NCBI GenBank assembly: GCA_964023205.1
Contig: OZ026833.1
Location: forward strand, 32,576,830-32,640,829
Length of the DNA stretch: 64,000 bases
DNA from: Lutraria lutraria
Lineage: Eukaryota > Mollusca > Bivalvia > Venerida > Mactridae
Direction of reading: 5' to 3'
Shown: piece after piece, positions 1-12,908 of the stretch
How the letters are laid out: the number at the start of each line of letters is the position of its first letter
Position numbering within the stretch: position 1 is the stretch's first letter
The notes under the pieces: model-generated
What the model was told of the DNA's origin: nothing
Databases searched by the model: none
What the model saw: the letters and a program-made list of their open reading frames with translations, nothing else
Program-made: the position numbers and the translations under genes

Positions 1-5
1 TTTCT

Positions 6-377
6 TCATAGCTTTTTCACCAGTGTGGCAACACCTCCACTGAGTGCTCCTGCAGCAACAGCTTTAGCAATGATTGGAGCAAGAGCTAGTAATGGAAATA
101 ATCCTCCTTTTTGATTCAACACACGTTTCTTTTTTTGAATGGATACTCTTTTATCTGCTAAAGTGCGGAGATGTTGACGCTTGGACTTCAACCTTTGCTT
201 TTGAGAGGGGGATAAGGCAACATTGCCTTTTAAAACATTCTGACAGCATTCTGCCACACATTGAATCATTTCTTTAGATGCTCCATGTATCATCTTTCTT
301 CTTAACCCATCTGGGGCTTGAGTTAAACCCAAAACCAGATGTCCGTATTTATGCAGGAGTGGTCGCTTTGGTGCCAT
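6..377 (-). CDS. Small basic core-type protein of the viral element (123 aa)
   Basis: ATG at 377, stop at 6-8. The protein is rich in Lys, Arg and Gln, and its last ~33 residues are hydrophobic and glycine-rich after an NQKGG motif. Residues ~26-95 align by eye with residues ~22-95 of the next gene upstream: both have a basic start, a KEM helix, a Q/K-rich helix, then a K-R-x-L-x-x-x-GG turn. The two are therefore paralogous. The layout resembles small DNA-binding or membrane-active core proteins of adenovirus, Polinton and adintovirus type, but that function is inferred. A TATAAAAG box on the minus strand at 413-420 lies ~36 bp upstream of the ATG and almost touches the stop codon of the upstream gene, so it probably has its own promoter. 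Its 3' signals lie outside the window. Confidence 0.75.
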   Translation of the reverse strand: MAPKRPLLHKYGHLVLGLTQAPDGLRRKMIHGASKEMIQCVAECCQNVLKGNVALSPSQKQRLKSKRQHLRTLADKRVSIQKKKRVLNQKGGLFPLLALAPIIAKAVAAGALSGGVATLVKKL

Positions 378-412
378 TATGTCAAATAATACCTGTTTTT
401 ACTTCTTCACAG

Positions 413-420
413 CTTTTATA
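413..420 (-). promoter_or_regulatory. TATA box for the 123-aa core gene
   Basis: TATAAAAG on the minus strand, 36-43 bp before the ATG at 377. It gives a predicted start of transcription near 388. It adjoins or overlaps the stop codon region of the upstream gene (416-418). Confidence 0.5.
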
Positions 421-1654
421 CTAAAGCATCAAAGGCTTGTCTTGAAGCTTGATTCATAGGGCCCTGTCTCATCAGGTGAATACGATGTCTCAAAAGGGGT
501 TTCAAGACAGCCTGTCTTGATAAGGTAGACAAGGATAGGGGTGAAAAACGGCACAATGGAGTGTCTGGTGAACTTCTTGAACTGGGAGATGATCTACTGG
601 ATGAACTTCTAGAACTGTGAGATGATCTACTGGATGAACTCCTAGATGAATTTCTTGAAGAACTCAAACTACTTGACCCACTGCTTGAAGAACTACTTGG
701 TGAACTTCTAGAATAACTTCTAGATAAACTGCTTGGCCCACTGCTTGAATAACTCAAACTACTTGGCGAACTTCTAGATAAACTGCTTGAATAACTCAAA
801 CTGCTTGGTCCACTTCTTGATAAACTTCTTGAACTTCTAGATGAACTGCTTGGTCCACTTCTAGATAAACTGCTTGAATAACTCAAACTGCTTGGTCCAC
901 TTCTTGATAAACTTCTTGAACTTCTAGATGAACTGCTTGGTCCACTTCTAGATAAACTTCTAGATGAACTTCTTAAACTTTTAGGTGTGCTAAAACTGTT
1001 TGATCCACTTCTAGAAGAATTTTGAGATGAGCTTTTAGATGAATTTCTAGATGAGCTAAAGCTCAAACTACTCACAGGACTGATAGGAGACCATTGTAAC
1101 TTACTGATTGGAGTTACAGCCATAGAGGGTGTTGAAGTGGTTTGCTTTCGACGACGGAGAGTAATAAAACGTTCATTGATCTTGGCAGGCGATTTTCTAG
1201 CTTTTTTAGCTGGAGCTTTTCTAGGTTTTCTAGCAGGCGATTTTCTAGCTTTTTTAGCTGGAGCTTTTCTAGGTTTTCTAGCAGGCGCTTTTCTGGCTTT
1301 TTTAGCTGGAGATTTTACAAATTTACGAATCGTCTTTTGACCATTCCATCGGAGTAAACTTCGTATCATGACTCCACCAAGAAATCCACCTCCTCCTGGT
1401 TTCAATATGAGTTGACGTTTAGTATCCATGTCCACTTGATCATCTCCCAGCTGCTCTAATTCATGCTGATGTTTTTGCATAAAGTTTTGTGTTTGTTTAG
1501 GTAGCACAATTTTCTTTTTTAAAATCACCTTTGCTGCTAAGGTGAACCACTTGAGCATTTCTTTTAATCCAGACCTTAGCATTTGCTCCCGTACAGTAGG
1601 GTCTCGTTCCTGACCCAAATGTTCTAACGATTGAGCTATGGCTGTGGCTGACAT
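416..1654 (-). CDS. Core/packaging-type protein with histone-H1-like and Ser/Arg-rich repeats (412 aa)
   Basis: ATG at 1654. Three parts are visible. Residues 20-100 are a helical domain shared with the 123-aa neighbour, ending in a GGGGFLGG turn. Residues ~112-160 are a Lys/Pro/Ala repeat of the PAKKARK/PARKPRK kind, coded by a 48-bp tandem repeat (about 2.6 copies near 1190-1315), very like histone H1 tails or sperm-type basic proteins. Residues ~190-385 are low-complexity Ser/Arg with SRSS, SRSGPSS and SSLS blocks. A DNA-condensing virion core protein, functionally like adenovirus core proteins, is the best inference. The long SR tail suggests phosphorylation-controlled binding to DNA or RNA. 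A TATATATAAA box lies ~35 bp upstream, inside the end of the ATPase gene. Low-complexity regions make homology calls unreliable; the reading frame itself is intact. Confidence 0.75.
   Translation of the reverse strand: MSATAIAQSLEHLGQERDPTVREQMLRSGLKEMLKWFTLAAKVILKKKIVLPKQTQNFMQKHQHELEQLGDDQVDMDTKRQLILKPGGGGFLGGVMIRSLLRWNGQKTIRKFVKSPAKKARKAPARKPRKAPAKKARKSPARKPRKAPAKKARKSPAKINERFITLRRRKQTTSTPSMAVTPISKLQWSPISPVSSLSFSSSRNSSKSSSQNSSRSGSNSFSTPKSLRSSSRSLSRSGPSSSSRSSRSLSRSGPSSLSYSSSLSRSGPSSSSRSSRSLSRSGPSSLSYSSSLSRSSPSSLSYSSSGPSSLSRSYSRSSPSSSSSSGSSSLSSSRNSSRSSSSRSSHSSRSSSSRSSPSSRSSPDTPLCRFSPLSLSTLSRQAVLKPLLRHRIHLMRQGPMNQASRQAFDALV
1189..1315 (-). repeat. 48-bp tandem repeat coding a 16-residue Lys/Pro/Ala unit
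   Basis: Two full copies and a partial third of a 48-bp unit (first unit starts GGCGATTTTCTAGC on the plus strand). The unit length is a multiple of three, so the repeat stays in frame and expands the H1-like basic segment. Confidence 0.8.
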
Positions 1655-1687
1655 GATGACTGAATGATCTTATATGAGTAAACGATG

Positions 1688-1697
1688 TTTATATATA
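1688..1697 (-). promoter_or_regulatory. TATA box for the 412-aa core gene
   Basis: A TATATATAAA sequence read on the minus strand, about 35-43 bp upstream of the ATG at 1654 and overlapping the last codons of the ATPase gene. Confidence 0.45.
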
Positions 1698-2336
1698 CAC
1701 AACTGGCCCACGTTTTTCTCCAGTGATCCAGTGATGAAAAATATCTGTTCTTAACCGATAACTGTCTGGTGTTTGAGGGTGAAAGTCAATCACTAAATAC
1801 CCATGAGGTGTAGAGATAGCATCTTGATAAGCGGGTAACAAGTGTGGCAATTGAATTTGATTCGCCAACACTTTGATTTGTCCTTTATCTCTTGTGTTTT
1901 GAAATAAGATCATGTAATGTGCATTTAAACTCAGGGTACGACTGGCTTTCGATTGTTGAAACATGTTTTGTGTAATGTAGATCACACTAGCATTACGATG
2001 GTGACCTTTTCGTGTAAACCATAATTTGATTTTCTCTTCATCTTTATCACCAAGCATGTCATCAAATATAATTAAATGAGGAATGGATGTATCCTCTACT
2101 ATCTCTTCATCCTCGTCAGGTATCCCCTGTATGAACCGAATACTAGGTTCTTGTTCTTGTAATTGTGCATAGGCTACTTGCCATTCTTTGTAACACCATA
2201 CAATACGCTCTGGTACTACTTGAAACAAATCTGATTTGTATTCCAACACCTTTTTTACAAATTGTGTTTTACCAGAGCCACTAGGGCCTGAGATAAACAT
2301 ATTGCAAGGATGCTTAAAAAGTAAACTGGACTCCAT
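1689..2336 (-). CDS. A32/FtsK-HerA-like genome-packaging ATPase (215 aa)
   Basis: ATG at 2336. Walker A GPSGSGKT is at residues 17-24, right after a short hydrophobic strand. Walker B LIIFDDM is at 88-94, and a YITQN sensor strand at 120-124 follows the RKGHHRN segment. This order and the ~215-residue length match the packaging ATPases of Polintons, adintoviruses and relatives of poxvirus A32, which pump genome DNA into preformed capsids using ATP. It sits between the DNA polymerase gene block and the core-protein genes on the same strand, as expected for such an element. No frame breaks or missing motif residues were seen, suggesting recent function. The family is clear; the exact lineage is not, because capsid genes lie outside the window. 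Confidence 0.9.
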   Translation of the reverse strand: MESSLLFKHPCNMFISGPSGSGKTQFVKKVLEYKSDLFQVVPERIVWCYKEWQVAYAQLQEQEPSIRFIQGIPDEDEEIVEDTSIPHLIIFDDMLGDKDEEKIKLWFTRKGHHRNASVIYITQNMFQQSKASRTLSLNAHYMILFQNTRDKGQIKVLANQIQLPHLLPAYQDAISTPHGYLVIDFHPQTPDSYRLRTDIFHHWITGEKRGPVVYI

Positions 2337-2376
2337 GACGTGAAAATCACAACTAACACTATTGGAAGAAAAACAT

Positions 2377-2386
2377 TTTATTTATT
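2377..2386 (-). terminator. Polyadenylation signal after the minus-strand polymerase block
   Basis: AATAAATAAA on the minus strand, beginning 13 bases beyond the stop of the 120-aa gene and ahead of the ATPase ATG. It probably ends transcripts of the polymerase and small genes by normal polyadenylation, unlike the histone-type ends in the right arm. Confidence 0.5.
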
Positions 2387-2398
2387 TGTGTAACAAGT

Positions 2399-2761
2399 TT
2401 ATGTATGAGTACAAGAATAATCACAACAAGAACAACACATGTCATGTAATGGTAACAACAGTTTGTCAGAAAATTCAAACACACATTCTGAATGTCCAAA
2501 TTGACTCAGAAATGTTAACACAGAGTCATTGTTCACCACCTGTTTGAACCAATCCGTTTCACTCAAGTCCATGGGTACTGATTGTTTATAAAATGAATTC
2601 ATCACATGAAGTCCATGTTTCATTTCTTCAAACATGTCTGGTGTACTCAACTGTTGTCGAATCCATTCCAGAGAATGATGACCTTCAGGTATCTTCATAC
2701 GATAAGCAAATACCAATGCTTTTCTCAACAGGGTATGGTTCATAATATCAAACTGTTCCAT
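2399..2761 (-). CDS. Unrecognised small protein of the viral element (120 aa)
   Basis: ATG at 2761, stop at 2399-2401. It overlaps the end of the upstream 95-aa gene by 22 bases in another frame, as in compact viral genomes. The sequence is mixed helical and moderately acidic, with a Cys cluster (CCSCCDYSC) at the C-terminus that may bind metal. I do not recognise a family. A polyadenylation signal follows at once. The overlap and the lack of stops support a real gene, but the function is unknown. Confidence 0.6.
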   Translation of the reverse strand: MEQFDIMNHTLLRKALVFAYRMKIPEGHHSLEWIRQQLSTPDMFEEMKHGLHVMNSFYKQSVPMDLSETDWFKQVVNNDSVLTFLSQFGHSECVFEFSDKLLLPLHDMCCSCCDYSCTHT

Positions 2762-3027
2762 TCTTGAATCGTGTGAATCACTCTATCGTTACATACATAA
2801 GTATTCCAATCGTCTCGATGGATAGCTTTCAAGTCTAAGTGTGCACTAATCATAGCATCACGAATCATCTGTCTAAATAGTTCAAACGTGTGAGGGTTCA
2901 GAATCCACGCGCGAATGTCCTTGACCTTGACAAGGTCATCTTGTACAATACTGTATAACGTATCCGTATACAGCTCAAAATCCAAAATGTAATATAAACT
3001 TATAAATCGTCTAGATGGTTTAACCAT
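2740..3027 (-). CDS. Unrecognised small protein of the viral element (95 aa)
   Basis: The open frame extends to 3048 without an ATG there; the first ATG is at 3027, starting MVKPSRRF, giving 95 residues. It overlaps the upstream gene by 28 bases and the downstream gene by 22 bases, so three consecutive genes overlap in alternating frames. A 17-bp palindrome, TGACCTTGACAAGGTCA, lies inside it at 2922-2938. No family recognised. Confidence 0.55.
   Translation of the reverse strand: MVKPSRRFISLYYILDFELYTDTLYSIVQDDLVKVKDIRAWILNPHTFELFRQMIRDAMISAHLDLKAIHRDDWNTYVCNDRVIHTIQEWNSLIL
2922..2938. promoter_or_regulatory. 17-bp palindrome of two nuclear-receptor half-sites
   Basis: TGACCTTGACAAGGTCA, a perfect inverted pair of CAAGGTCA half-sites inside coding sequence. 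CAAGGTCA is the extended half-site used by NR5A/ERR-type receptors. It may be chance codon usage, but the same half-site recurs at several promoters of the element. Confidence 0.3.
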
Positions 3028-3542
3028 AATTGAATATTTCCTGAACAAATCACTATTCTAGGTCGATTCGCATGAACGGCTTCAATCTCGTCTTTGACTT
3101 CTCTTAAGCGATGCCTTAATTTATAGAACACGGCACGATACTGTAGAATATGAATAACATGAGTGAACGGTACCTGTCTCTTAAATACCATGATACCACG
3201 TATTTTAAACTGTGAATACGGACGCCATCCGGGGTGAGATCTCCCATTGTCCTCTTCAGCCATACTGAACCATATCACATTGGGGGTAGAACGAAAATTG
3301 TTAGCTAAGGCAGATACGTCGCTCAAATTAGCATCGTGGATTAAAAAATCCCATGTCGTAGATAACATACGATCTAAGCTTTGTTGTACCACATTCAGTT
3401 TTCGTAGAATCGGTAATTTTTGGTTGAATGACAAGTCCTGGCGATCACCTACATCCTTCAACAGTCTCTCTATCCGTCGATGATTTGTATGTTGTAAGCT
3501 ATGTATAGCATTATGAGTAGCCCATGTGTGCACTAACTCCAT
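3000..3542 (-). CDS. Unrecognised protein of the viral element (180 aa, start uncertain)
   Basis: The frame is open back to 3626 but has no ATG before 3542 (MELVHTW), which gives 180 residues. A second ATG at 3622 opens a short overlapping frame whose first residues look like an F-box start (Leu-Pro-x-Glu-Leu). It lies one base out of register with the main frame, so a one-base indel, or an unseen upstream exon, may separate the true 5' end. The main frame is helical with many Arg/His and no recognised motif. It lies directly after the DNA polymerase gene on the same strand. Confidence 0.55.
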   Translation of the reverse strand: MELVHTWATHNAIHSLQHTNHRRIERLLKDVGDRQDLSFNQKLPILRKLNVVQQSLDRMLSTTWDFLIHDANLSDVSALANNFRSTPNVIWFSMAEEDNGRSHPGWRPYSQFKIRGIMVFKRQVPFTHVIHILQYRAVFYKLRHRLREVKDEIEAVHANRPRIVICSGNIQLWLNHLDDL

Positions 3543-3682
3543 CTTCCATGTTTTAGCGTTAGCCCATATGACATAACGATAAATTTTCTCAGCTCTATCG
3601 GTAGTAAGGGTATCCAATCCATGTCTTTATGAATAATGAATTTTAGATGACTTGTTCTAGGCCTCTAGCTCAAAGGTCAAGG

Positions 3683-6600
3683 TCAGTCATGTAGATAACC
3701 ATAAGGCACAGTCATATGATTCTCGACCACAATACGTTTGGTATATACCGAACGAAATGTTTTGACTTGTTTCTCACTGGTCACGGTTCTGTCCTTATGA
3801 CGTTTAATCCGAGAAGCATATTCAACTACGGTCGAATAATGATGTCTGTCTTTCACACAATCCACCATCGTATTGAAATTCACTTGTTGAGTGGCATTGT
3901 AGTCTAACGTAATGCCTTTCACTTTGCATTTTTGATGGAGTTCACCGTTTTCAATGTATTCATAGCCATAGTTCTTTGGACCTAAAGCGACATATCTCAC
4001 AATACGACCCTTTGGTACCTCATCTGTCCATTTTCCCAATCGACTGGAGATAATAGGAACATTATAGCCATCAGGGTCATGAATGTACATACAACTGTCT
4101 GTGTCAAAATACAGTACTCTCTTTCCTAGAGGTTCAAGCACTTTGTACAGTTCTAATCGAGCATAAGCCGTCACAAATGAAGCCACCACAGGATTGGCTG
4201 ATGAATGAGGGTCTGCTTTGTCCGATTCATCAGTATAATTCATTAACATGAATTCATCATGATCAAAACACTCTGCATATTTCACAGACTTTTTAGGATC
4301 GTTCAGTATTCCGTAGAACTGGTCCAATCGATGAACATACTCTGTTTTAGGCAAGAGGTTAGTTTGAGCATTTTTACCCCAGAGACAATTCAGCATGGTT
4401 TTGGCAAAAGCTCGTTTTCCTGGATTTTTCTCCACCTGTTGCAAACGAATTCCTTCTGCTTCAAAATAATCCTGTTTAAATTTATCTTGAGCCTCTTCCG
4501 TATCCACCCCTGGAGGATATCCACTAGCCTCTTGTTTCATTTTCAAGTATTTATCAATGTATTGCCGATAGACGTCCGTACTCCATTCATCCCAGTGCCA
4601 TACATGATACACTTTTGATACTTGATAGCCTAAAGCAATAGCTTTAGCCAATTCAACATGAGTCCATGTGCCATACAAGAACCGTTCATACGGGGAATGT
4701 GTACAATAATCCATCTCCTTCTCAGCACAGGTACGGCATAGCGTAAACACCATTTTACTATTACAGTGTATGGGTAAGACAGGCATCCATAAATCTTGCG
4801 GGGGTAGAACACGACATTTAATCAGTCCTTTGTATTTCTCAATATGCTGTTGATCAATTTGTTCTTGACTCATGATCACTGGATGACCTATCGGATAAGC
4901 CCTGTACTTGTTCACATACGGATAGAGAGAACAAATATCCACATATTTGATTTCTTGGTCGTTGTCTACTTCATGATACAGTCGGACGGCATTCGTACGA
5001 CCTCCGAACAAAGCTTCCCTGGGTTGAATCGGGCCTTGACCATGATAGAATCGTTCCACTCTTGTCTTATAGGCAGGATCCTTTTGACAACGCTGATCAA
5101 ATTCACATTCCCACATGACCACAACAGGATACCCCTGTTCTTTCAAAGACTCCAGTCGCTTATACGTATCGTGATAGGCCTGTTGCATGGTTCTCAAAGT
5201 ATACGGATTGATGGTACTTCGGTTAGGAAAACAGGTGGGGCATCCATGGTACCAACATCCCATGAATTCATACACGGTGTTGGTCTCTTGACAATAGCCA
5301 TCCACGTAATAAGGTCCAATTTTGACTTCGCCTTTGTTATTCAAGGCATGCCGAATATGTATCTCTTCGGTGACAGCCATCATTTGTAGCCAACGTATGC
5401 CTTTCATGGAATACCGGGTTTTATTGGGATACCCGGCATCCGAAATCACGGCTAAACTATGAGGTGGCATGGAACTTTTGCGCCAGGCTTTGTTACACAC
5501 TTGAGCTAATGTGGTAGCTTCAGTAAATGGATCTATTTGATCACTTTCCAATAATTGTTGACGAAATTCTCCACACCCGCGTCTTAAAATGTCCACATCC
5601 GATTGACAGTATTTCTCCATTTCCTTTTGAAAATCAAATACGTCACCTTTTCTTTCATTGTACCAGGTTAAAAACTCTTCACGTCGCTCTGGTTTCATAC
5701 TATCCGGTTTGTAAAAGTGTAGCGGTAAATAAGGTCCCACATAATCTTGATACGTCAAGGTGTTTGCATAGAATGGAAACCATCCTTTGGCTAACTCGGT
5801 CAGTCCAAATGCATTGGGAAAATAGGAGAGAGGCATACTCAGGAAACTGAGGGAGTCAATCATGCGTATTCCATGCACTCTCAATTGAATGATTTTACTA
5901 CCATTCATAATCAACTGGGGTTTCGCCGTCCCCTGAGTAACCACATATCTAAGAATAAACTGAGCGTCATAGCCTTGAGCATTGTGGGCTATCACTGTCG
6001 ATCCTCGATGGGTAGGGAGGAATAGCCAAGTACAGAATTGTTGTAACGTATTTTCACCACGGAATGTCATTTGTCTGGCTTCATTCACCTCTTCACAATA
6101 CTCACATGGAGCTTTCACTGACTTACACATACAGTCACCACAAGCACGTTGAGCCACACAAAAATTAGGGATATGTTCTCCAGAATCAAAACGACATTCA
6201 AAATCAAAAAAGATGAATGGTACTGCTGGTTGTTTTCTATTGGGTGGTTCATACGTTGGAATGTAACAGTCATGATCTGGTCCTACTATGGCTTTACAAC
6301 ACCTGCATTTCTTTGTCCCTGGGCAAACGTGACTCCGTTTCGTTTCAATCACCTTTTGCCCACATTTCTTACAATTCCATACGGATTCACAAATGGTTTT
6401 ACGTCGTTTTCCCGTTTTTGTTTTATGATTGTCAAAACATGCCTGACTCTGGAATAGGCGACGACAATCCGGACATCTTATAGATTGTCCTGCTGGGCAC
6501 AGGGTGTGAGCATAACACTGACAAATATGGCTACACTGGTGTCCTTCACGGTGATCATAACCGACATCACACCATTCACAATAATAACTCCGTCCGAGAA

Positions 6601-7474
6601 ATCCGGTAATGGATACGATACAGTCATAATGATTATCATGGTGAAAGATATGAATCACACGACTTTTTTCAGTCATAGCAGGTGGTTTGAATAACAATTC
6701 ACTTCCATAATGTTGTGGATGGATTTTAATCACATAGCCTGGATAGAGATAGTCCTGTAGTTTTTGGTATTCTTCTATACCACACGACTGATCCGATGAA
6801 ATACCCACTTGCTTCAACAATGCTTCAGCTTCGTATTTTTGAAGATTTTTCTTAGAGTGACGTATAAGACCCCATCGTTTTTTCCATTCTGGGGTTTGAT
6901 TTTCATGTACTTTACACCGTCCTACCACAATCGATCTAGCTAAACACATAGAGTCTTTACTATTGTCAATACACACAACACTTGTCTTTGACTTCCGCAT
7001 ACTGGATAAGTTTGGTGCTTTAAACGTTTTCTTTCCGGATCCCTGTGGCATAGCAATATGCGTAATTTCCATCTGTGCCGCCCCATCATGAATTTTAAAT
7101 TGACGGTTACTTTGTGCCACACGTTCAATTTCATCCAATAATGTATCTCCACTAATACGAGATGCCCTATTAAACGGAACATGTATCCCAAAGTCCAAAT
7201 CAGGATGTAGAATAGATACTCGAACTCGATCATTCGATCTCACTTCACATCTCTTGTAGAGTTGGTCCATCATATCATTAAACAACCGGTTTGTAAATTC
7301 AAACGATTGATTATACGGTTGAAATGTCACATCATATACTCTAGATTGTGTCTTGAATTTCCTTGACTTTCTTTCCATGCGTGACTGTATGTCATAATAG
7401 TCGCGCACAGGCTCAAACTTACTTCGTTTAGTTGGAGGTTCATCCTCACCACTAGTACTGTCGGTATCTGACAT
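3683..7474 (-). CDS. polB: Protein-primed family B DNA polymerase, Polinton/adintovirus type (1263 aa)
   Basis: This enzyme would replicate the element. I start it at the ATG at 7474: the open frame runs to 7540 but begins without ATG, and a minus-strand TATA box at 7502-7510 would put transcription start just before 7474. In this numbering, residues ~170-290 have an OTU-like pattern (Cys177 in DSMCLARSI, His282 in DNHYD). Residues ~298-405 are a multi-Cys/His zinc-binding stretch. Exo I is at D424/E426, Exo II around N498 and D503, Exo III around D626. Pol A is DICSLYP (846-852), pol B KTMLNCLWG (1025-1033), pol C DTDS (1124-1127). Residues ~725-791 carry the Vsr-like insert (ETNTVYEF, GCWYHGCPTC, MWECEF) seen in Polinton-type polymerases. 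All catalytic residues are present and there are no stops. Confidence 0.92.
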   Translation of the reverse strand: MSDTDSTSGEDEPPTKRSKFEPVRDYYDIQSRMERKSRKFKTQSRVYDVTFQPYNQSFEFTNRLFNDMMDQLYKRCEVRSNDRVRVSILHPDLDFGIHVPFNRASRISGDTLLDEIERVAQSNRQFKIHDGAAQMEITHIAMPQGSGKKTFKAPNLSSMRKSKTSVVCIDNSKDSMCLARSIVVGRCKVHENQTPEWKKRWGLIRHSKKNLQKYEAEALLKQVGISSDQSCGIEEYQKLQDYLYPGYVIKIHPQHYGSELLFKPPAMTEKSRVIHIFHHDNHYDCIVSITGFLGRSYYCEWCDVGYDHREGHQCSHICQCYAHTLCPAGQSIRCPDCRRLFQSQACFDNHKTKTGKRRKTICESVWNCKKCGQKVIETKRSHVCPGTKKCRCCKAIVGPDHDCYIPTYEPPNRKQPAVPFIFFDFECRFDSGEHIPNFCVAQRACGDCMCKSVKAPCEYCEEVNEARQMTFRGENTLQQFCTWLFLPTHRGSTVIAHNAQGYDAQFILRYVVTQGTAKPQLIMNGSKIIQLRVHGIRMIDSLSFLSMPLSYFPNAFGLTELAKGWFPFYANTLTYQDYVGPYLPLHFYKPDSMKPERREEFLTWYNERKGDVFDFQKEMEKYCQSDVDILRRGCGEFRQQLLESDQIDPFTEATTLAQVCNKAWRKSSMPPHSLAVISDAGYPNKTRYSMKGIRWLQMMAVTEEIHIRHALNNKGEVKIGPYYVDGYCQETNTVYEFMGCWYHGCPTCFPNRSTINPYTLRTMQQAYHDTYKRLESLKEQGYPVVVMWECEFDQRCQKDPAYKTRVERFYHGQGPIQPREALFGGRTNAVRLYHEVDNDQEIKYVDICSLYPYVNKYRAYPIGHPVIMSQEQIDQQHIEKYKGLIKCRVLPPQDLWMPVLPIHCNSKMVFTLCRTCAEKEMDYCTHSPYERFLYGTWTHVELAKAIALGYQVSKVYHVWHWDEWSTDVYRQYIDKYLKMKQEASGYPPGVDTEEAQDKFKQDYFEAEGIRLQQVEKNPGKRAFAKTMLNCLWGKNAQTNLLPKTEYVHRLDQFYGILNDPKKSVKYAECFDHDEFMLMNYTDESDKADPHSSANPVVASFVTAYARLELYKVLEPLGKRVLYFDTDSCMYIHDPDGYNVPIISSRLGKWTDEVPKGRIVRYVALGPKNYGYEYIENGELHQKCKVKGITLDYNATQQVNFNTMVDCVKDRHHYSTVVEYASRIKRHKDRTVTSEKQVKTFRSVYTKRIVVENHMTVPYGYLHD

Positions 7475-7501
7475 GATTATGATCTTAAAACTTCTCCGCC
7501 G

Positions 7502-7510
7502 TTTTTTATA
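7502..7510 (-). promoter_or_regulatory. TATA box of the polymerase gene
   Basis: TATAAAAAA on the minus strand, ~28-36 bases before the ATG at 7474. It excludes the upstream non-ATG extension of the polymerase frame and fixes the start. Confidence 0.55.
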
Positions 7511-7518
7511 CTTCGGGT

Positions 7519-7527
7519 TCAAGGTCA
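7519..7527 (+). promoter_or_regulatory. TCAAGGTCA half-site between divergent promoters
   Basis: A perfect extended nuclear-receptor half-site lying between the TATA box of the polymerase and the TATA box of the zinc-knuckle gene. Related copies occur at 3677-3685, 8572-8580, 9406-9414 and 9509-9517. Confidence 0.3.
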
Positions 7528-7542
7528 CAACGCGTGACACTC

Positions 7543-7550
7543 TATAAAAG
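7543..7550 (+). promoter_or_regulatory. TATA box of the zinc-knuckle gene
   Basis: TATAAAAG, 34-41 bases before the ATG at 7584. With the minus-strand TATA box at 7502-7510 it forms a compact divergent promoter. Confidence 0.55.
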
Positions 7551-7583
7551 ACGTACGCTCCGTCCGTTTTTTATCATTTCAAC

Positions 7584-7934
7584 ATGAGCGATCCTAAAAT
7601 GAACCAAGTTGAAGAGAACCGAGATCAAACTTTGATGTATTCATTAAAGAAGAAAATTAAAGAGCTTAACAACTTAGCGGATCAGCTCTGTGGACAGAAA
7701 AATGTAACATGGGATCATATCAAGTGTTATCGTTGTGGAAAGAAAGGACATTATTCTACAAGCTGTACGGAACCCTTCAACAATGAATGTTTTTATTGTC
7801 ATGAACAAGGACATTTCATCGCAGACTGTCCTAAGAAACAAGGTGAACAGGTCGATCTACAGGACGCAGAACAGAGTAAGAAAAAACGTAAATACAAAAA
7901 GAATCCAACAAAAACTGTGAGTGACTTTGTGTAA
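7584..7934 (+). CDS. Two-knuckle CCHC zinc protein (116 aa)
   Basis: ATG at 7584. Residues ~50-63 (CYRCGKKGHYSTSC) and ~68-81 (CFYCHEQGHFIADC) are exact C-x2-C-x4-H-x4-C zinc knuckles. A helical N-terminus precedes them, and a Lys-rich tail (KKKRKYKKN) that can act as a nuclear signal follows. Such knuckles bind single-stranded nucleic acid in CNBP-like proteins and retroviral nucleocapsids. Here the gene shares a divergent promoter with the DNA polymerase, so a role as single-strand binding or replication accessory protein is a fair inference. A normal AATAAA signal follows at 8056. Capture from a host or retroelement gene is possible. Confidence 0.8.
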   Translation: MSDPKMNQVEENRDQTLMYSLKKKIKELNNLADQLCGQKNVTWDHIKCYRCGKKGHYSTSCTEPFNNECFYCHEQGHFIADCPKKQGEQVDLQDAEQSKKKRKYKKNPTKTVSDFV

Positions 7935-7940
7935 TCCAGA

Positions 7941-7980
7941 CAATGTGTTGGACAATGTGTTGGACAATGTGTTGGACAAT
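7941..7980 (+). repeat. 12-bp tandem repeat in a 3' UTR
   Basis: GACAATGTGTTG is repeated three times, with a fourth partial copy, directly after the zinc-knuckle stop codon. It is a short 3' UTR minisatellite. Confidence 0.7.
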
Positions 7981-8055
7981 TGTGTATAGACTTAAATTGG
8001 AGACTAAGTGAGTTGTATTGTGTTGTACTTTGTTGTACTTTAGAATGTTTTCAAA

Positions 8056-8061
8056 AATAAA
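8056..8061 (+). terminator. Polyadenylation signal of the zinc-knuckle gene
   Basis: AATAAA 122 bases after the stop codon of the CCHC gene. This gene uses the polyadenylation route, unlike the three accessory genes to its right. Confidence 0.55.
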
Positions 8062-8126
8062 ATGATAGACAATGTAATATGCTTTTGTCTTTGCTTGAGA
8101 AACAAAACGAATCTAACACATATGGT

Positions 8127-8142
8127 GGCCCTAATAAGGGCC
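8127..8142 (-). terminator. Histone-type 3' stem-loop of the 75-aa gene
   Basis: On the minus strand GGCCCTTATTAGGGCC, a 6-bp stem with a UAUU loop, 11 bases after the stop codon. It is flanked by CCCAAC on the 5' side and ACCA on the 3' side. It fits the metazoan histone consensus GGYYYUUHUHARRRCC at every position. A purine element resembling the histone downstream element (CAAGCAAAGA) follows at 8097-8088, farther off than the usual 13-17 bases. Confidence 0.7.
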
Positions 8143-8152
8143 GTTGGGTAAT

Positions 8153-8380
8153 TTATTGCATTTCTGCAAGAAATAGGTATCGCCAATAGTTGGCTCTCAA
8201 ATCCTCATCATAAAAGATGGCAAGGTCAGGGTATAAATTACCCATCTTGATATCCATCTTGACAACACTAACATCTTGAAATTCAGACAAGTCTGGGTAC
8301 AAATTACCCATCTTGACCACCCAAACATCTTCTTGTAACTCATCAGGTTCATCAGAAGTACTTTTCAAGCAGTTGCCCAT
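8153..8380 (-). CDS. Predicted myristoylated small protein with twin LYPDL motifs (75 aa)
   Basis: ATG at 8380. The N-terminus MGNCLKST is a good N-myristoylation signal (Gly2, Ser/Thr near position 7) with Cys4 available for palmitoylation, so membrane anchoring is likely. A block of ~22 residues is duplicated, placing the motif GNLYPDL twice (tyrosines at 28 and 50). LYPxnL-type motifs are known ligands of the ESCRT adaptor ALIX and act as late-budding domains in enveloped viruses; two spaced YxxL motifs can also bind adaptor or SH2 proteins. The sequence is acidic overall and has no membrane span. It is divergent from the 107-aa gene, sharing the CCAAT array, and it ends in a histone-type stem-loop. 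Function is inferred; I know no named homologue. Confidence 0.7.
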   Translation of the reverse strand: MGNCLKSTSDEPDELQEDVWVVKMGNLYPDLSEFQDVSVVKMDIKMGNLYPDLAIFYDEDLRANYWRYLFLAEMQ

Positions 8381-8442
8381 GTTGAATCATGAAACATAAA
8401 TGAGCTATGGAACATGAAAAAAAAACACTGACCTAGAACAGA

Positions 8443-8543
8443 CCAATGAAATGCCAGTAAAATAGACCAATGAAATACCGTTAAAATGGACCAATGAAAT
8501 ACCGTTAAAATGGACCAATGAAATACCGTTAAAATGGACCAAT
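8443..8543. promoter_or_regulatory. Five CCAAT boxes with exact 24-bp spacing
   Basis: CCAAT at 8443, 8467, 8491, 8515 and 8539, within a 24-bp tandem repeat (ACCAATGAAATACCGTTAAA). The last is ACCAATCAGAG, close to the best NF-Y site. The array lies between two divergent genes whose mRNAs both end in histone-type stem-loops. Divergent histone gene pairs are also driven by CCAAT boxes, so the parallel is striking. Confidence 0.65.
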
Positions 8544-8607
8544 CAGAGTCCTTGTATCATATGAGAGTCAGTGACCTTGCCTTGATCTAATTTCATTCTG
8601 TATCAAG

Positions 8608-8931
8608 ATGTCTCAACGTACAGTCAACATTATTAAGAGAAAATATGCCGCCTTAGGGCGGTATATTGAACAGCTGGAAATGCAGTTGGAAGAGCTGAGG
8701 CTAGAGGTCAAGACCCTGAGAGAGGGAAAGCAGTTTGTAGAGGAGGTCGTGGTCAGCTCTGGGGAAGAGGACTGGGGGGATACCCCTCAAGAATCAACCC
8801 CAGAGAACTGGGAAGATGAGTTAATAGAGGTTCCTTCGAACCTCTACCAGCCTACACCGGACCCCAAGGATGTCCAGAAATGGGACAAGTGGTGTCCCGC
8901 TTGTATGGGGAGATGCGGTCAACGCCATTAA
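8608..8931 (+). CDS. Coiled-coil acidic protein of the viral element (107 aa)
   Basis: ATG at 8608. Residues ~5-45 form a clear heptad coiled coil (YIEQLEMQLEELRLEVKTL). Residues ~50-70 are acidic with SSGEEDWGD and TPENWEDE, good casein kinase 2 sites. The C-terminus has CPAC and RCGQRH, a possible zinc or disulfide pair. No family recognised. An oligomeric regulator or adaptor is plausible. The gene is divergent from the 75-aa gene over the CCAAT array and is followed by two tandem histone-type stem-loops and a purine downstream element. GC content is higher than in the flanking DNA. Confidence 0.7.
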   Translation: MSQRTVNIIKRKYAALGRYIEQLEMQLEELRLEVKTLREGKQFVEEVVVSSGEEDWGDTPQESTPENWEDELIEVPSNLYQPTPDPKDVQKWDKWCPACMGRCGQRH

Positions 8932-8950
8932 TTCCCATACAAGCACCAAC

Positions 8951-8966
8951 GGTCCTTTTCAGGACC
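8951..8966 (+). terminator. Histone-type 3' stem-loop, first of a tandem pair
   Basis: GGTCCTTTTCAGGACC, a 6-bp stem and TTTC loop, 20 bases after the stop of the 107-aa gene. It is preceded by CACCAAC and followed by ACCA. It matches the histone consensus at every position. Confidence 0.75.
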
Positions 8967-8972
8967 ACCAAC

Positions 8973-9007
8973 GGCCCTTTTCAGGGCCCCCATACAATTC
9001 AGAAAGA
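8973..9007 (+). terminator. Histone-type 3' stem-loop plus downstream element, second of the pair
   Basis: GGCCCTTTTCAGGGCC at 8973-8988 also fits the consensus. AGAAAGA at 9001-9007 lies 13 bases farther on, the position of the U7 snRNA-binding histone downstream element. Together they form a complete histone pre-mRNA processing signal, with cleavage expected near 8993. Confidence 0.75.
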
Positions 9008-9079
9008 ATCATTCTCATATTGTCAATATTTACAGTCCTATCTGATAACACCAAATACAAATATACGGTGTGAGGTAAG

Positions 9080-9385
9080 TTTTCTATAAACATTTCCTAC
9101 AAATATAAGTGATAGTATGATGTGTACAATCATTTTCAACAAATGTATACAAAGTGCTGTGATTGTATGAAGAACAAAGTATTTCCCCCACAAATATAAG
9201 TGTTAGTATGTGATGTACAATCATTTTCAACAAATGTATACAGTGTTCAAATTGCTGTGATAGTATAATGTGTACAGTATTCAAATTGCTGTGATAGTAT
9301 TAAGTGTACAGTGTTCAAATTGCTGTGATAGTATATATTAAGTGTACAGTGTTCAAATTGCTGTGATAGTATAATGTGTACAAAG
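9080..9385 (+). repeat. AT-rich tandem repeats between accessory genes
   Basis: Degenerate tandem copies of a ~35-40-bp unit containing TTCAAATTGCTGTGATAGTAT and AATGTGTACA (at least four), preceded by two longer copies with ACAAATATAAGTG and TCATTTTCAACAAATGTATACA. No gene is visible here. The location between two accessory genes would suit an enhancer or replication element; that is speculation. Confidence 0.6.
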
Positions 9386-9400
9386 CATATCTACAATATA

Positions 9401-9520
9401 ACCTTGACCTTGACGTGTCAAACACTTGTTCAAAAAAAACTTGAAGTGTCACACTTATTTTAAAAAAACTTGAAGTGTCACATGTATTCAAAAAAAACTT
9501 CTCACAATTGACCTTGACCT
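9401..9520 (+). promoter_or_regulatory. Upstream repeats and TGACCTTGA sites of the repeat-rich gene
   Basis: TGACCTTGA at 9406-9414 and 9509-9517 flank three copies of a ~33-bp unit containing AAAAAAACTTGAAGTGTCAC. The second site lies about 34 bases before the TATA box at 9551. Confidence 0.35.
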
Positions 9521-9550
9521 AATAGAACACTGGCGCGTGCAGGCAAAAAG

Positions 9551-9558
9551 TATAAATA
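9551..9558 (+). promoter_or_regulatory. TATA box of the 238-aa gene
   Basis: TATAAATA 36-43 bases before the ATG at 9594. It rules out the upstream non-ATG extension of the reading frame. Confidence 0.55.
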
Positions 9559-9593
9559 CCCCCGGCGCAGACACTATTTTTTCATTATCTAGC

Positions 9594-10310
9594 ATGGAGT
9601 CCTTCAACATGCCATACGATATATTGAGAGAAGCACTAGAATCATCTGAGTTAATAGACCCGAATGCGGGTATGCATTACAACCAGCCGAAGTACAACCA
9701 GCCAAAGTACGGTCAACTACAGTATAGGCAGCCACAGTACAGCCAATACAGTCAACCACTGTACAGCCAATACAGTCAACAGTCCATGGTAGATGTACAA
9801 CCCCCCATGGTAGATGTACAGCCGATACAACCCATGGTAGATGTACAACCCACTATGACGAATACACAGCCTATGGTAGATGTACAACCCACTATGACGA
9901 ATACACAGCCTATGGTAGATGTACAACCCACTATGACGAATACACAGCCTATGGTAGATGTACAACCCACTATGACGAATACACAGCCCCCTATGGCGAA
10001 AACACAGTCTAATACAAAGCCTACAACGGGATTGTCTGTTCTACAAGGTATCAAGGAAGAAATGGTACAGATGAATCAAGTCATGCAAGAGATGGTCAGA
10101 CTCATGAAAAATCAAGAAGTACGGTTTAAGCCACAAGAAATGATTGTACCTGTACAGTTTATGTATGATTCAAAGAAACGAAAGCATGAGCATGAGAAAA
10201 AGAAACCGGAGCATGACAAAAAGAAACCGGAGATGACAGAAACGAAGAAACGAAAACATGACCTTGAGAAACAACCTCGGGGCAAGTATGGTAAAGAAAT
10301 AAAGAAATGA
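9594..10310 (+). CDS. Repeat-rich protein with coiled coil and basic nuclear tail (238 aa)
   Basis: ATG at 9594, chosen because it follows the TATA box. A Tyr/Gln-rich segment (YNQPKY, YSQYSQ) is at residues ~28-62. A 13-residue repeat (MVDVQPTMTNTQP) occurs about four times, coded by a 39-bp tandem repeat. A short coiled coil (KEEMVQMNQVMQEMVRLM) follows, then a strongly basic tail with KKRKHEHEKKK-type nuclear signals. Most of it is expected to be disordered and to act by multivalent binding, perhaps in a nuclear replication or assembly focus; this is inference. A histone-type stem-loop and purine element follow the stop. No family recognised. Confidence 0.7.
   Translation: MESFNMPYDILREALESSELIDPNAGMHYNQPKYNQPKYGQLQYRQPQYSQYSQPLYSQYSQQSMVDVQPPMVDVQPIQPMVDVQPTMTNTQPMVDVQPTMTNTQPMVDVQPTMTNTQPMVDVQPTMTNTQPPMAKTQSNTKPTTGLSVLQGIKEEMVQMNQVMQEMVRLMKNQEVRFKPQEMIVPVQFMYDSKKRKHEHEKKKPEHDKKKPEMTETKKRKHDLEKQPRGKYGKEIKK
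9786..9990 (+). repeat. 39-bp in-frame tandem repeat
   Basis: ATGGTAGATGTACAACCC plus ACTATGACGAATACACAG form a 39-bp unit repeated four times almost without change, after two shorter partial copies. It codes the 13-residue repeat. Near identity suggests recent expansion. Confidence 0.85.
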
Positions 10311-10336
10311 AGATCCGACTAACAGCCACAACCAAC

Positions 10337-10375
10337 GGTCCTTTTCAGGACCACCAACGGTCTTTTCGAAAGAAA
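10337..10375 (+). terminator. Histone-type 3' stem-loop plus downstream element of the 238-aa gene
   Basis: GGTCCTTTTCAGGACC at 10337-10352, 26 bases after the stop codon, preceded by ACCAAC and followed by ACCA. AAAGAAA at 10369-10375 lies 16 bases downstream, in the window for a U7-binding element. The 30-bp core is almost identical to the one after the 107-aa gene, so it was probably duplicated with the accessory genes. Confidence 0.75.
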
Positions 10376-10379
10376 ATTC

Positions 10380-10590
10380 TCTCATTGTCTTAGTCTATAC
10401 ACACACAAAACAATGGTCCCAGAACATTCCTAAAATTCAATTCATACTATTTTGGGGTACAACATTGATTTCCAATTTGTCCTAATTTGTCACAATTTTG
10501 TTTACTTTGGGGACCAAAATGGGTGCAAATGGTCCCAGGGTACCGCCATACACTACTTATGTGTCAACAGGACTCAACTTTTTTCTAATT
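10380..10590. other. Probable right edge zone of the viral element
   Basis: No gene. The sequence changes here from element-like to AT-rich host-like. AATGGTCCCAG occurs twice as a direct repeat (near 10411 and 10528). The exact terminus and its inverted repeat cannot be fixed because the left end of the element is outside the window. Confidence 0.35.
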
Positions 10591-11436: not shown

Positions 11437-12908
11437 ATGATGATTCAAAGGACACCAAGGTTCTCGTTTTGGGTGCTGGAATGGCTGGTATGAGTGCCGC
11501 AACAACCCTATTTGAGACTGGTTACAATAATATACAGATTATTGAAGGAACTGATCGAATTGGTGGTCGTGTCAAAGAGGCTAAACTAGGCGATTACACG
11601 GTTGAATTAGGACCAATGTGGGTGTATGGAAAAGGTACTAATCCAGTGTATAATATGGCCAACAAATTCAACTTGTCTTTGACTGACAATTATTTTGATT
11701 CTTGGACCGTTAGAAATAGTGCCGGGCAAAACCTTACGGAGATTGCTGATGAACTGTACGACACGTTTGATGAAATCCTGATTAGACTTAGCGATTTTGC
11801 CAAAAGGTCCGATGAAGATTTTAATTTGGCAGGTGCTTTAAGATATTTCAATTGGACAAGCAAAGCCAATCTCGACACAACTGTTGAAGCTTTCTTTCTT
11901 GATTTTGAGTTAGGAGTACTACCAAATGCCCATTCAGGAAAGTATGTGCATTTGGAAGAAGTATATGAAGATTTTGGAAGTTTCGATTCACTTGTGAGTA
12001 ATCATAAAAACGGTTTAGTAAACTTGGTAGAACGAATGAGTGAAGACGTAACCACGAGCGACGACAACCGAGTGTTGTTTAACACAGTAGTCACTGAAAT
12101 TGAATACGATGATGATTCTGTTTTGGTCCACACTACGGATGGTCAAACATTCAAAGCTGATTTTGCAATAGTAACATTCAGCCTTGGAGTCCTCCAACAA
12201 CGCAAAGTAGAATTCAGTCCACCATTACCGTTGCAGAAACAATTTGCTGTGGATACATTTGGTTTTGCTTCGTACACTCAGCTATATTTGCAATTCAACG
12301 AAGCTTTTTGGGACGACACGATGTATATACTCTACGCTGGTCCACTCAGAAGTATGAATGCCTTCTTTTTGAATATGAATTCCATTTATTCTGGGTCGAA
12401 CATACTGCAGATTTCTCTTTTGGACACGGTGTCTGACTGGGTTGAAAACACAAATGAGAGTGATGTCATTTCGGAAATTGTTGACGCTTTGCAGAAAATG
12501 TATCCAAATTCAATAATCCCAAATCCAATCGATTACGTTATATCCAGATGGAACCAAGACCCGTTCACGTTTGGTGCTTGGAGTTATTGGCCTCCTAGTT
12601 TCACTGAAGAAGACATGCAGAACCTCATAGCTCCTGTCGGTCGTTTACATTTTGCAGGGGAGTATGCTCACGAATTACACTACAGTTTTCTTCATGGTGC
12701 CTACCTCTCAGGTGATGGAGTTGCCAAGAAGATCATAGAATGTATTGAAGATCCACTGACTTGCAGCACGGCACAGGACTGGAAAGATCGTTACCAAAAC
12801 GTATATCGACTTTCTTCCGGTTCAAAGAGTGGATTTACAATCAATGCAGCAAGTTTTGCAATCTCGAGCATGCTTTTGATAAAGAATATTATGTATTCGT
12901 CTTGTTGA
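11437..12908 (+). CDS. Flavin polyamine-oxidase-like protein, copy 1, exon 2
   Basis: The exon starts after the acceptor AG at 11,435-11,436 with two bases that complete a split codon, as in copy 3. It codes ~489 residues. An ADP-binding Rossmann motif (LGAGMAGMSAATTL) and GGRV are at the start, and the FAD-closing motif (RLHFAGEYAHELHYSFLHGAYLSG in the sequence) is near the C-terminus. It resembles extracellular plant-type polyamine oxidases, which oxidise spermine or spermidine and release hydrogen peroxide. A hydrophobic C-terminal stretch after SSGSKSG suggests a GPI anchor. Gln replaces the usual Lys in the SYTQLYLQF strand. The signal-peptide exon expected ~2 kb upstream is absent, and the viral element occupies that place, so expression is doubtful. 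Confidence 0.85.

Follow-up and report, generated by a model that had tools for sequence, protein, structure and literature searches.

A Polinton/adintovirus-type provirus that is present in many copies in the genome of the bivalve Lutraria lutraria has stem-loops that match those of animal histone mRNAs, located just past the stop codons of four of its small genes and on their coding strands. One copy of this element extends across the left edge of the DNA analyzed here, a stretch of 64,000 nt from contig OZ026833.1 of assembly GCA_964023205.1 (hereafter "the window"). The right part of the copy is in the window, and its left part is in the 9 kb immediately to the left of the window (L017). 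We think it likely that the four genes (accessory genes A, B, C, and orf153) carry authentic histone-type, poly(A)-less 3′ processing signals. To our knowledge, histone mRNAs are regarded as the sole class of animal mRNAs with this particular stem-loop at the end.

Stem-loops at the ends of four accessory genes

The initial annotation of the window reported four 16-base sites that fit the metazoan histone consensus GGYYYUUHUHARRRCC, placed 11–42 nt past the stops of three genes. Both the matches and their placement hold: the window contains exactly four matches to the pattern GGYYYTTHTHARRRCC, with the positions and distances given in Table 1, and none of 100 dinucleotide shuffles of it contains any. 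The Rfam histone stem-loop model, RF00032 (gathering score 34 bits), gives 36.4 bits at 10332–10377 (+), behind gene C, the sole site in the window above the gathering score. It gives 32.1 bits at 8968–9013 (+), 31.0 bits at 8147–8102 (−), and 16 bits for the first member of the tandem pair behind gene B (8951) taken alone. Among 4227 Rfam families, RF00032 alone reaches its own cut-off in the 64 kb (at that one site).

The initial annotation did not notice a fourth gene, orf153, at the opposite end of the element, where two more stem-loops begin 13 and 35 nt past the stop (the second scores 35.8 bits with RF00032). Altogether, four genes of the element are followed by six strict sites, and no further strict site was found anywhere in it. 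All six are on the coding strand, with the first base 11–42 nt past the stop. None of the zinc-knuckle, polymerase, ATPase, integrase, capsid, and protease genes has a stem-loop of its own within 300 nt. Tandem stem-loops are spaced 6 nt apart, and the two behind gene B differ by a compensatory change between U-A and C-G that keeps the pairing. The copy in the window is without 20 bp that carry the second stem-loop of gene C.

The gene C site and the inner orf153 site fall within the aligned terminal inverted repeats (TIRs), which means that the two terminal genes face outward, with their ends in or at the repeats. This location, and the flanks common to several sites, would suit an explanation in which the hairpins belong to the TIRs as DNA-level elements (with roles in replication, packaging, or integration) that were copied inward, the likeness to histone signals being due to descent or chance. 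We consider this quite improbable. The gene A and B sites are internal, at a distance of 1.3–2.2 kb from the edge of the TIR, each of the six sites follows the coding strand of the adjacent upstream gene, and the loop and flanks fit RF00032, which is strand-specific. Also, the exchange of U-A for C-G in the B stems preserves the pairing, and in a deeply diverged relative (L008, described below) the site is behind an unrelated gene, whether inside or outside a TIR.

The stem-loops recur with their genes across the genome. A polymerase search scored at least 37 copies, of 566 candidates, all of them 98–100% identical, and we compared the right arms of 20 further copies. Gene A has its site at +11 and gene B has its two sites at exactly +20 and +42 in 20 of 20. 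The gene C frame was located, through its start motif, in 10 of the 20 arms, where its first site is at +27 to +38 and its second at +49 to +60; in the ten arms where the frame was not located, the C-end stem-loops are present. The second C stem-loop, missing from the window copy, is found in all 20, and 19 have two strict C sites (the exception, L048, has one strict and one degenerate site). The gene A site is present at 30 of 30 polymerase loci, a count that includes the window copy and the copies of the 20 arms. Homologues of orf153 at two further loci (80%–82% identical) end in stem-loops too, including one in which the frame is broken by a stop at 94 aa. The initial annotation had raised the case of relatives that keep the genes and lose the stem-loops; no such case was seen wherever a gene was located in a copy.

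Genome-wide counts are in line with these comparisons. The pattern GGYYYTTHTHARRRCCAMC has 2381 matches in the 728.5 Mb genome versus six for the reversed control. Among the first 100 matches listed (all on C1), 99 fall in 17 clusters of 16.6–17.0 kb, each with three minus sites and then plus sites in outward orientation (three of the clusters have five sites, not six). Extrapolation from these matches, which cover part of C1, would give about 400 element copies with six sites each. Searched with RF00032, the genome yielded 131,090 candidates; 75 were scored and 44 of these were retained as matches, 37 of them exceeding the cut-off. Half of the matches (22) make up 11 minus/plus pairs with a separation of 16.7–17.8 kb.

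For gene B, the 14 distinct sequences among 21 copies have a mean proportion of synonymous differences (pS) of 0.263 and of nonsynonymous differences (pN) of 0.027 (pN/pS 0.10). The value for the zinc-knuckle gene is 0.11 (19 of 21 copies used) and that for gene A is 0.54 (based on the 10 of 21 copies that encode exactly 75 aa). Stem-loop identity across copies is 99.4%–100%; in the gene B stem-loops a single base differs, in one of 20 copies, turning A-U into G-U.

These values bear on whether the stem-loops could be functionless relics of 3′ ends that were captured along with host genes. Non-histone donors may exist, given that a non-histone gene in a tandem array of the same genome has a similar stem-loop, and the absence of a confident Pfam name for any of the four accessory genes is compatible with such an origin. 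Nevertheless, we judge it very improbable that they are relics. The stem-loops are nearly invariant in copies with 26% synonymous divergence in gene B, they are found at four genes and are mostly doubled, and a stem-loop is also found in the deeply diverged L008.

Putative processing signals and host factors

In A, C, and orf153, the four bases after the last stem read ACCA; in L008 they read ACCC. Purine runs start 13–16 nt past the stem in B, C, orf153, L008, and two other loci, and a weak one is seen in L070. The initial annotation had described purine elements 13 and 16 bases after two of the stem-loops, and these were found for B and C, respectively (Table 1). It was also right that the zinc-knuckle gene has an ordinary AATAAA, which lies 122 nt past its stop. 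No AATAAA or ATTAAA occurs within 300 nt past the stop of gene B. Predicted folds contain a hairpin with a 6-bp stem and a 4-nt loop in all four 3′ regions (A, B, C, and L008), and the z-scores relative to shuffles are −4.1 for B and −2.8 for L008. The host encodes SLBP, based on two neighboring matches to PF15247 (60.9 and 34.5 bits), a family that was matched in none of 14 control genomes.

The relative mentioned above comes from a scan of prokaryote assemblies, in which nine Polinton-like contigs were found (presumably contaminants). In one of them, L008, the polymerase, integrase, and capsid protein are 35%, 34%, and 29% identical to those of the window element. There, an RF00032 match of 35.8 bits starts 29 nt past the stop of a gene for an 89-aa C2H2 zinc-finger protein, for which no relationship to A, B, C, or orf153 was detected, and a purine run begins 13 nt after the stem. 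When the whole assemblies of the eight source genomes were searched with RF00032, the L008 site was the only one found (one of eight genomes). A relaxed hairpin scan of the nine foreign contigs returned just two hairpins, the L008 stem-loop and a dissimilar one in L005.

Several observations weigh against the interpretation of these signals as histone-type. In the 60 nt that follow the gene A stem-loop, there is no purine run as long as 6 nt, and the second stem of gene B is followed by CCCA rather than ACCA. In the window copy, AATAAA occurs at the gene A stop and just before the gene C stop, and L008 has one at +115. The 3′ regions of C (z-score −1.3) and A (−1.8) barely differ overall from shuffles, and the purine element of gene C can pair with the preceding U run and may form a small hairpin. 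The host U7 candidate (C18:11176273-11176321, with a U7-like Sm site) scores 29.2 bits versus a cut-off of 34 (E = 0.07), six of 14 prokaryotic controls were matched at the same loose threshold, and its duplexes with the purine elements are no better than those of shuffles (p = 0.055–0.9). RF00032 searches also gave a match, below the cut-off, in one of the 14 control genomes. The signal was seen in only one of the nine Polinton-like contigs, although coverage of the accessory end in the other eight was not established. In a polymerase family on C6 that is 51% identical to that of L008, the 1.4 kb guessed to be the accessory end is without stem-loops; the frames there were not identified, making this uninformative. 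Finally, 10.7%–19.8% of 1184 noncoding 16-nt segments are equally conserved among the 20 copies. Because so many reach the same identity, stem-loop conservation is weak evidence by itself, and we rejected it as stand-alone proof.

Some of these points would be expected if the mRNAs were mostly polyadenylated, with the stem-loops adding SLBP-dependent regulation in the 3′ untranslated region (of translation, stability, or export) or serving a minority of the transcripts. The AATAAA motifs of A, C, and L008 and the missing purine element of gene A fit this alternative, which we nonetheless consider rather unlikely. With an AATAAA located at the stop or ahead of it, cleavage at the usual distance would fall no farther downstream than the stem-loop, the motif at the gene A stop is found in one of 20 other copies versus 20 of 20 for the stem-loop, and gene B has neither form of the signal in the interval noted above.

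If the signals are indeed of the histone type, the events at these 3′ ends might proceed as follows. One or two stem-loops that could bind SLBP lie just past the stop and, in three of the genes, are followed by a purine element that resembles a U7 site. Host SLBP, the U7 small nuclear ribonucleoprotein, and the cleavage complex would cut just after the last stem-loop, so that the product would be a capped mRNA with a stem-loop end in place of poly(A). Such mRNAs would be exported, translated, and destroyed along with the histone mRNAs, and the amount of protein would peak during host DNA replication, when the element too can replicate. The full signal is about 60 nt long and thus fits in the TIRs, where two of the genes end outward. 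Its confinement to the accessory genes suggests that they encode regulatory proteins timed to S phase, and the four small genes are probably early genes.

A further possible user of the stem-loop was found in the host genome. A small non-histone gene (L069, G000:C12:22876750-22877200) ends in a histone-type stem-loop with one C·A mismatch. It has many homologues of 106–110 aa, including in Mya arenaria and Dreissena, and no Pfam family. Further RF00032 matches nearby, at C12:22878584, 22880099, 22886179, and 22915381, suggest by their spacing a tandem array of this gene, which is possibly a host non-histone user of the stem-loop. The C12 array was considered as a set of host histone genes and rejected, as the encoded protein is not a histone and the main cluster of host matches to the histone fold (PF00125) is at C6:24990598-25100771. 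A genome search for GGYTCTTTTHAGARCCAMC gave no match, which means that there are no host histone stem-loops having both that form and that flank.

The element and its other features

The initial annotation described the element as Polinton/adintovirus-like, and the gene content and termini support this. The element shares with Polintons, Mavericks, and adintoviruses a protein-primed type B DNA polymerase (pPolB), an A32-like packaging ATPase, an rve integrase with a C-terminal chromodomain (L017:7190-8263; PF00665, E = 3.4e-12; PF00385, E = 1.4e-7), TIRs, and a 6-bp target-site duplication (TSD), the length that is the rule for this group. Arithmetic on the coordinates set by the TIRs and TSD places the whole insertion at C1:32570274-32587386 (17,113 bp).

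Table 1. Positions of the features discussed (window coordinates unless prefixed; distances are from the stop codon to the first base of the stem-loop)
Feature	Position	Strand	Remarks
Right part of the 17.1-kb Polinton/adintovirus-like insertion	1..10557	.	Ends set by TIR and TSD
Left part of the insertion, beyond the window	L017:2445-9000 (G000:C1:32570274-32576829)		
A32-like packaging ATPase	1689..2336	-	PF04665, E = 3.9e-8
Protein-primed type B DNA polymerase (pPolB)	3683..7474	-	1263 aa; PF03175, E = 3.5e-39
Zinc-knuckle gene	7584..7934	+	PF00098; no stem-loop
Gene A stem-loop	8127..8142	-	+11
Accessory gene A	8153..8380	-	75 aa; N-terminus MGNC; open frame of 73-76 aa in 20/20 copies
Five CCAAT boxes in a tandem repeat of 24-bp period	8434..8553	+	Between divergent genes A and B
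Accessory gene B	8608..8931	+	107 aa; same length in 20/20 copies
Gene B stem-loop 1	8951..8966	+	+20
Gene B stem-loop 2	8973..8988	+	+42
Purine element AGAAAGAA, like the histone downstream element (HDE)	9001..9008	+	Starts 13 nt after the gene B stem
Accessory gene C	9594..10310	+	238 aa; repetitive middle, basic C-terminus
Right TIR	10331..10557	.	227 bp; 97.4% identity to L017:2445-2669
Gene C stem-loop	10337..10352	+	+27; within the right TIR
HDE-like purine element GAAAGAAAA	10368..10376	+	Starts 16 nt after the gene C stem
TSD, TATGTG	10558..10563	+	6 bp; same at L017:2439-2444; read directly from the sequence
orf153, fourth accessory gene	L017:2698-3159	-	At the left end of the element

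The row of minus-strand frames continues into L017, where it includes the integrase, a protease-like gene, and a putative capsid gene. The protease is a candidate of the adenain type, with a weak match to PF00770 (E = 0.044, under the cut-off). The putative major capsid protein aligns with its L008 counterpart over 414 aa at 28.7% identity, and a Pfam search with it gave no convincing match. Among the best 120 of 713 relatives of the polymerase, the nearest that carry a host name are from bivalves, with beetles, corals, and others lower; the relatives include the PolB of a Rhodactis coral adintovirus. As given in PMC11071296, adintoviruses are defined by a PolB with an OTU-like domain, a hexon, and a chromodomain integrase, and the last of these fits the window element.

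No relative of the window polymerase, the L008 polymerase, or the capsid protein was found in IMG/VR. Four IMG/VR contigs contain the stem-loop pattern with flanks, which we take as chance: none reaches the RF00032 gathering score, and L004, the one of the four with its frames listed, is phage-like by eye. Separately, five tandem polymerase genes about 12 kb apart, which are those of the C6 family noted above, occur at G000:C6:15785688-15834593. This looks like a concatemer or a tandem array of another Polinton family.

Pfam provided no confident family name for A, B, C, or orf153, PHROGs provided no name for A, B, or C, and the histone fold (PF00125) has no match in any of the four. For orf153, only two homologues were found, both unnamed. 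The start of the gene A protein, MGNC, is a possible N-myristoylation/palmitoylation signal, and the motif KMGNLYPDL is repeated in it (by eye). The interval between B and C (9096–9500) contains several short tandem repeats that vary across copies, and the host frame adjoining the insertion (11481–12908) is flavin amine oxidase-like, by eye alone.

The CCAAT array between the divergent genes A and B is a probable shared promoter of both. Two sites of the CRE/ATF type (TGACGTCA) lie upstream of orf153 (L017:3159-3300), and three, along with one reversed CCAAT, lie upstream of the L008 zinc-finger gene (L008:7860-7970). Such CCAAT and CRE/ATF arrangements resemble cell-cycle-linked or early promoters. 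In adenovirus, small early genes have ATF-type sites, and the TGACGTCA sites upstream of orf153 and the L008 gene are similar in this respect. However, adenovirus early mRNAs are polyadenylated, unlike the mRNAs proposed here for the element.

Parallels and meaning

The closest parallel is the 3′ end of metazoan replication-dependent histone mRNAs, which depends on SLBP and U7 and is modeled by RF00032. The element has in common with it the 16-nt consensus stem-loop shortly past the stop, a host that encodes SLBP, ACCA after the last stem (A, C, and orf153), and, in three of the four genes, a purine element 13–16 nt farther on. It differs in that the four proteins are not histones, in its tandem double stem-loops, and in the location of part of the signal within the TIR of a transposon or virus. 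According to PMC2781718, the stem-loop and the purine HDE are the two elements required for histone 3′ ends and, as of 2009, SLBP had not been implicated in the regulation of non-histone genes.

The initial annotation knew of no description of such signals in elements of this kind, and our search of the open-licence literature likewise turned up no account of histone-type 3′ ends in Polintons or adintoviruses (a description elsewhere is possible), nor any paper on adintovirus polyadenylation. The terms "stem-loop" and "polyadenyl" have no occurrences in the available part of the adintovirus paper PMC11071296, and the available parts of PMC8602818 and PMC12898040 yielded no viral histone stem-loop. 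A coronavirus sequence has been reported to match the family of the stem-loop in the histone 3′ untranslated region and is to that extent like the element. As presented in PMC7786107, it is a computer prediction of 14.7 bits in the nsp3 coding region. It thus differs in being far under the cut-off of 34, in coming from an RNA virus, and in lying in a coding region rather than past a stop, and it leaves our assessment of the element unchanged.

The findings suggest that the element may link the expression of its genes to DNA replication. A broader proposal, to which we give even odds, is that an entire lineage of Polintons/adintoviruses in animals would use host SLBP and U7 for its regulatory genes, making poly(A)-less mRNAs in S phase only. 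The tandem stem-loops of the TIRs would then be a new class of viral 3′ end, and in this genome the element's stem-loops would probably far outnumber those of the histone genes. If the four genes do use histone-type 3′ ends, they would provide a natural tool for separating SLBP regulation from histone biology and would explain how Polintons could track the host cell cycle. In addition, poly(A)-selected RNA-seq would miss such transcripts, and these elements may seem silent when they are not.

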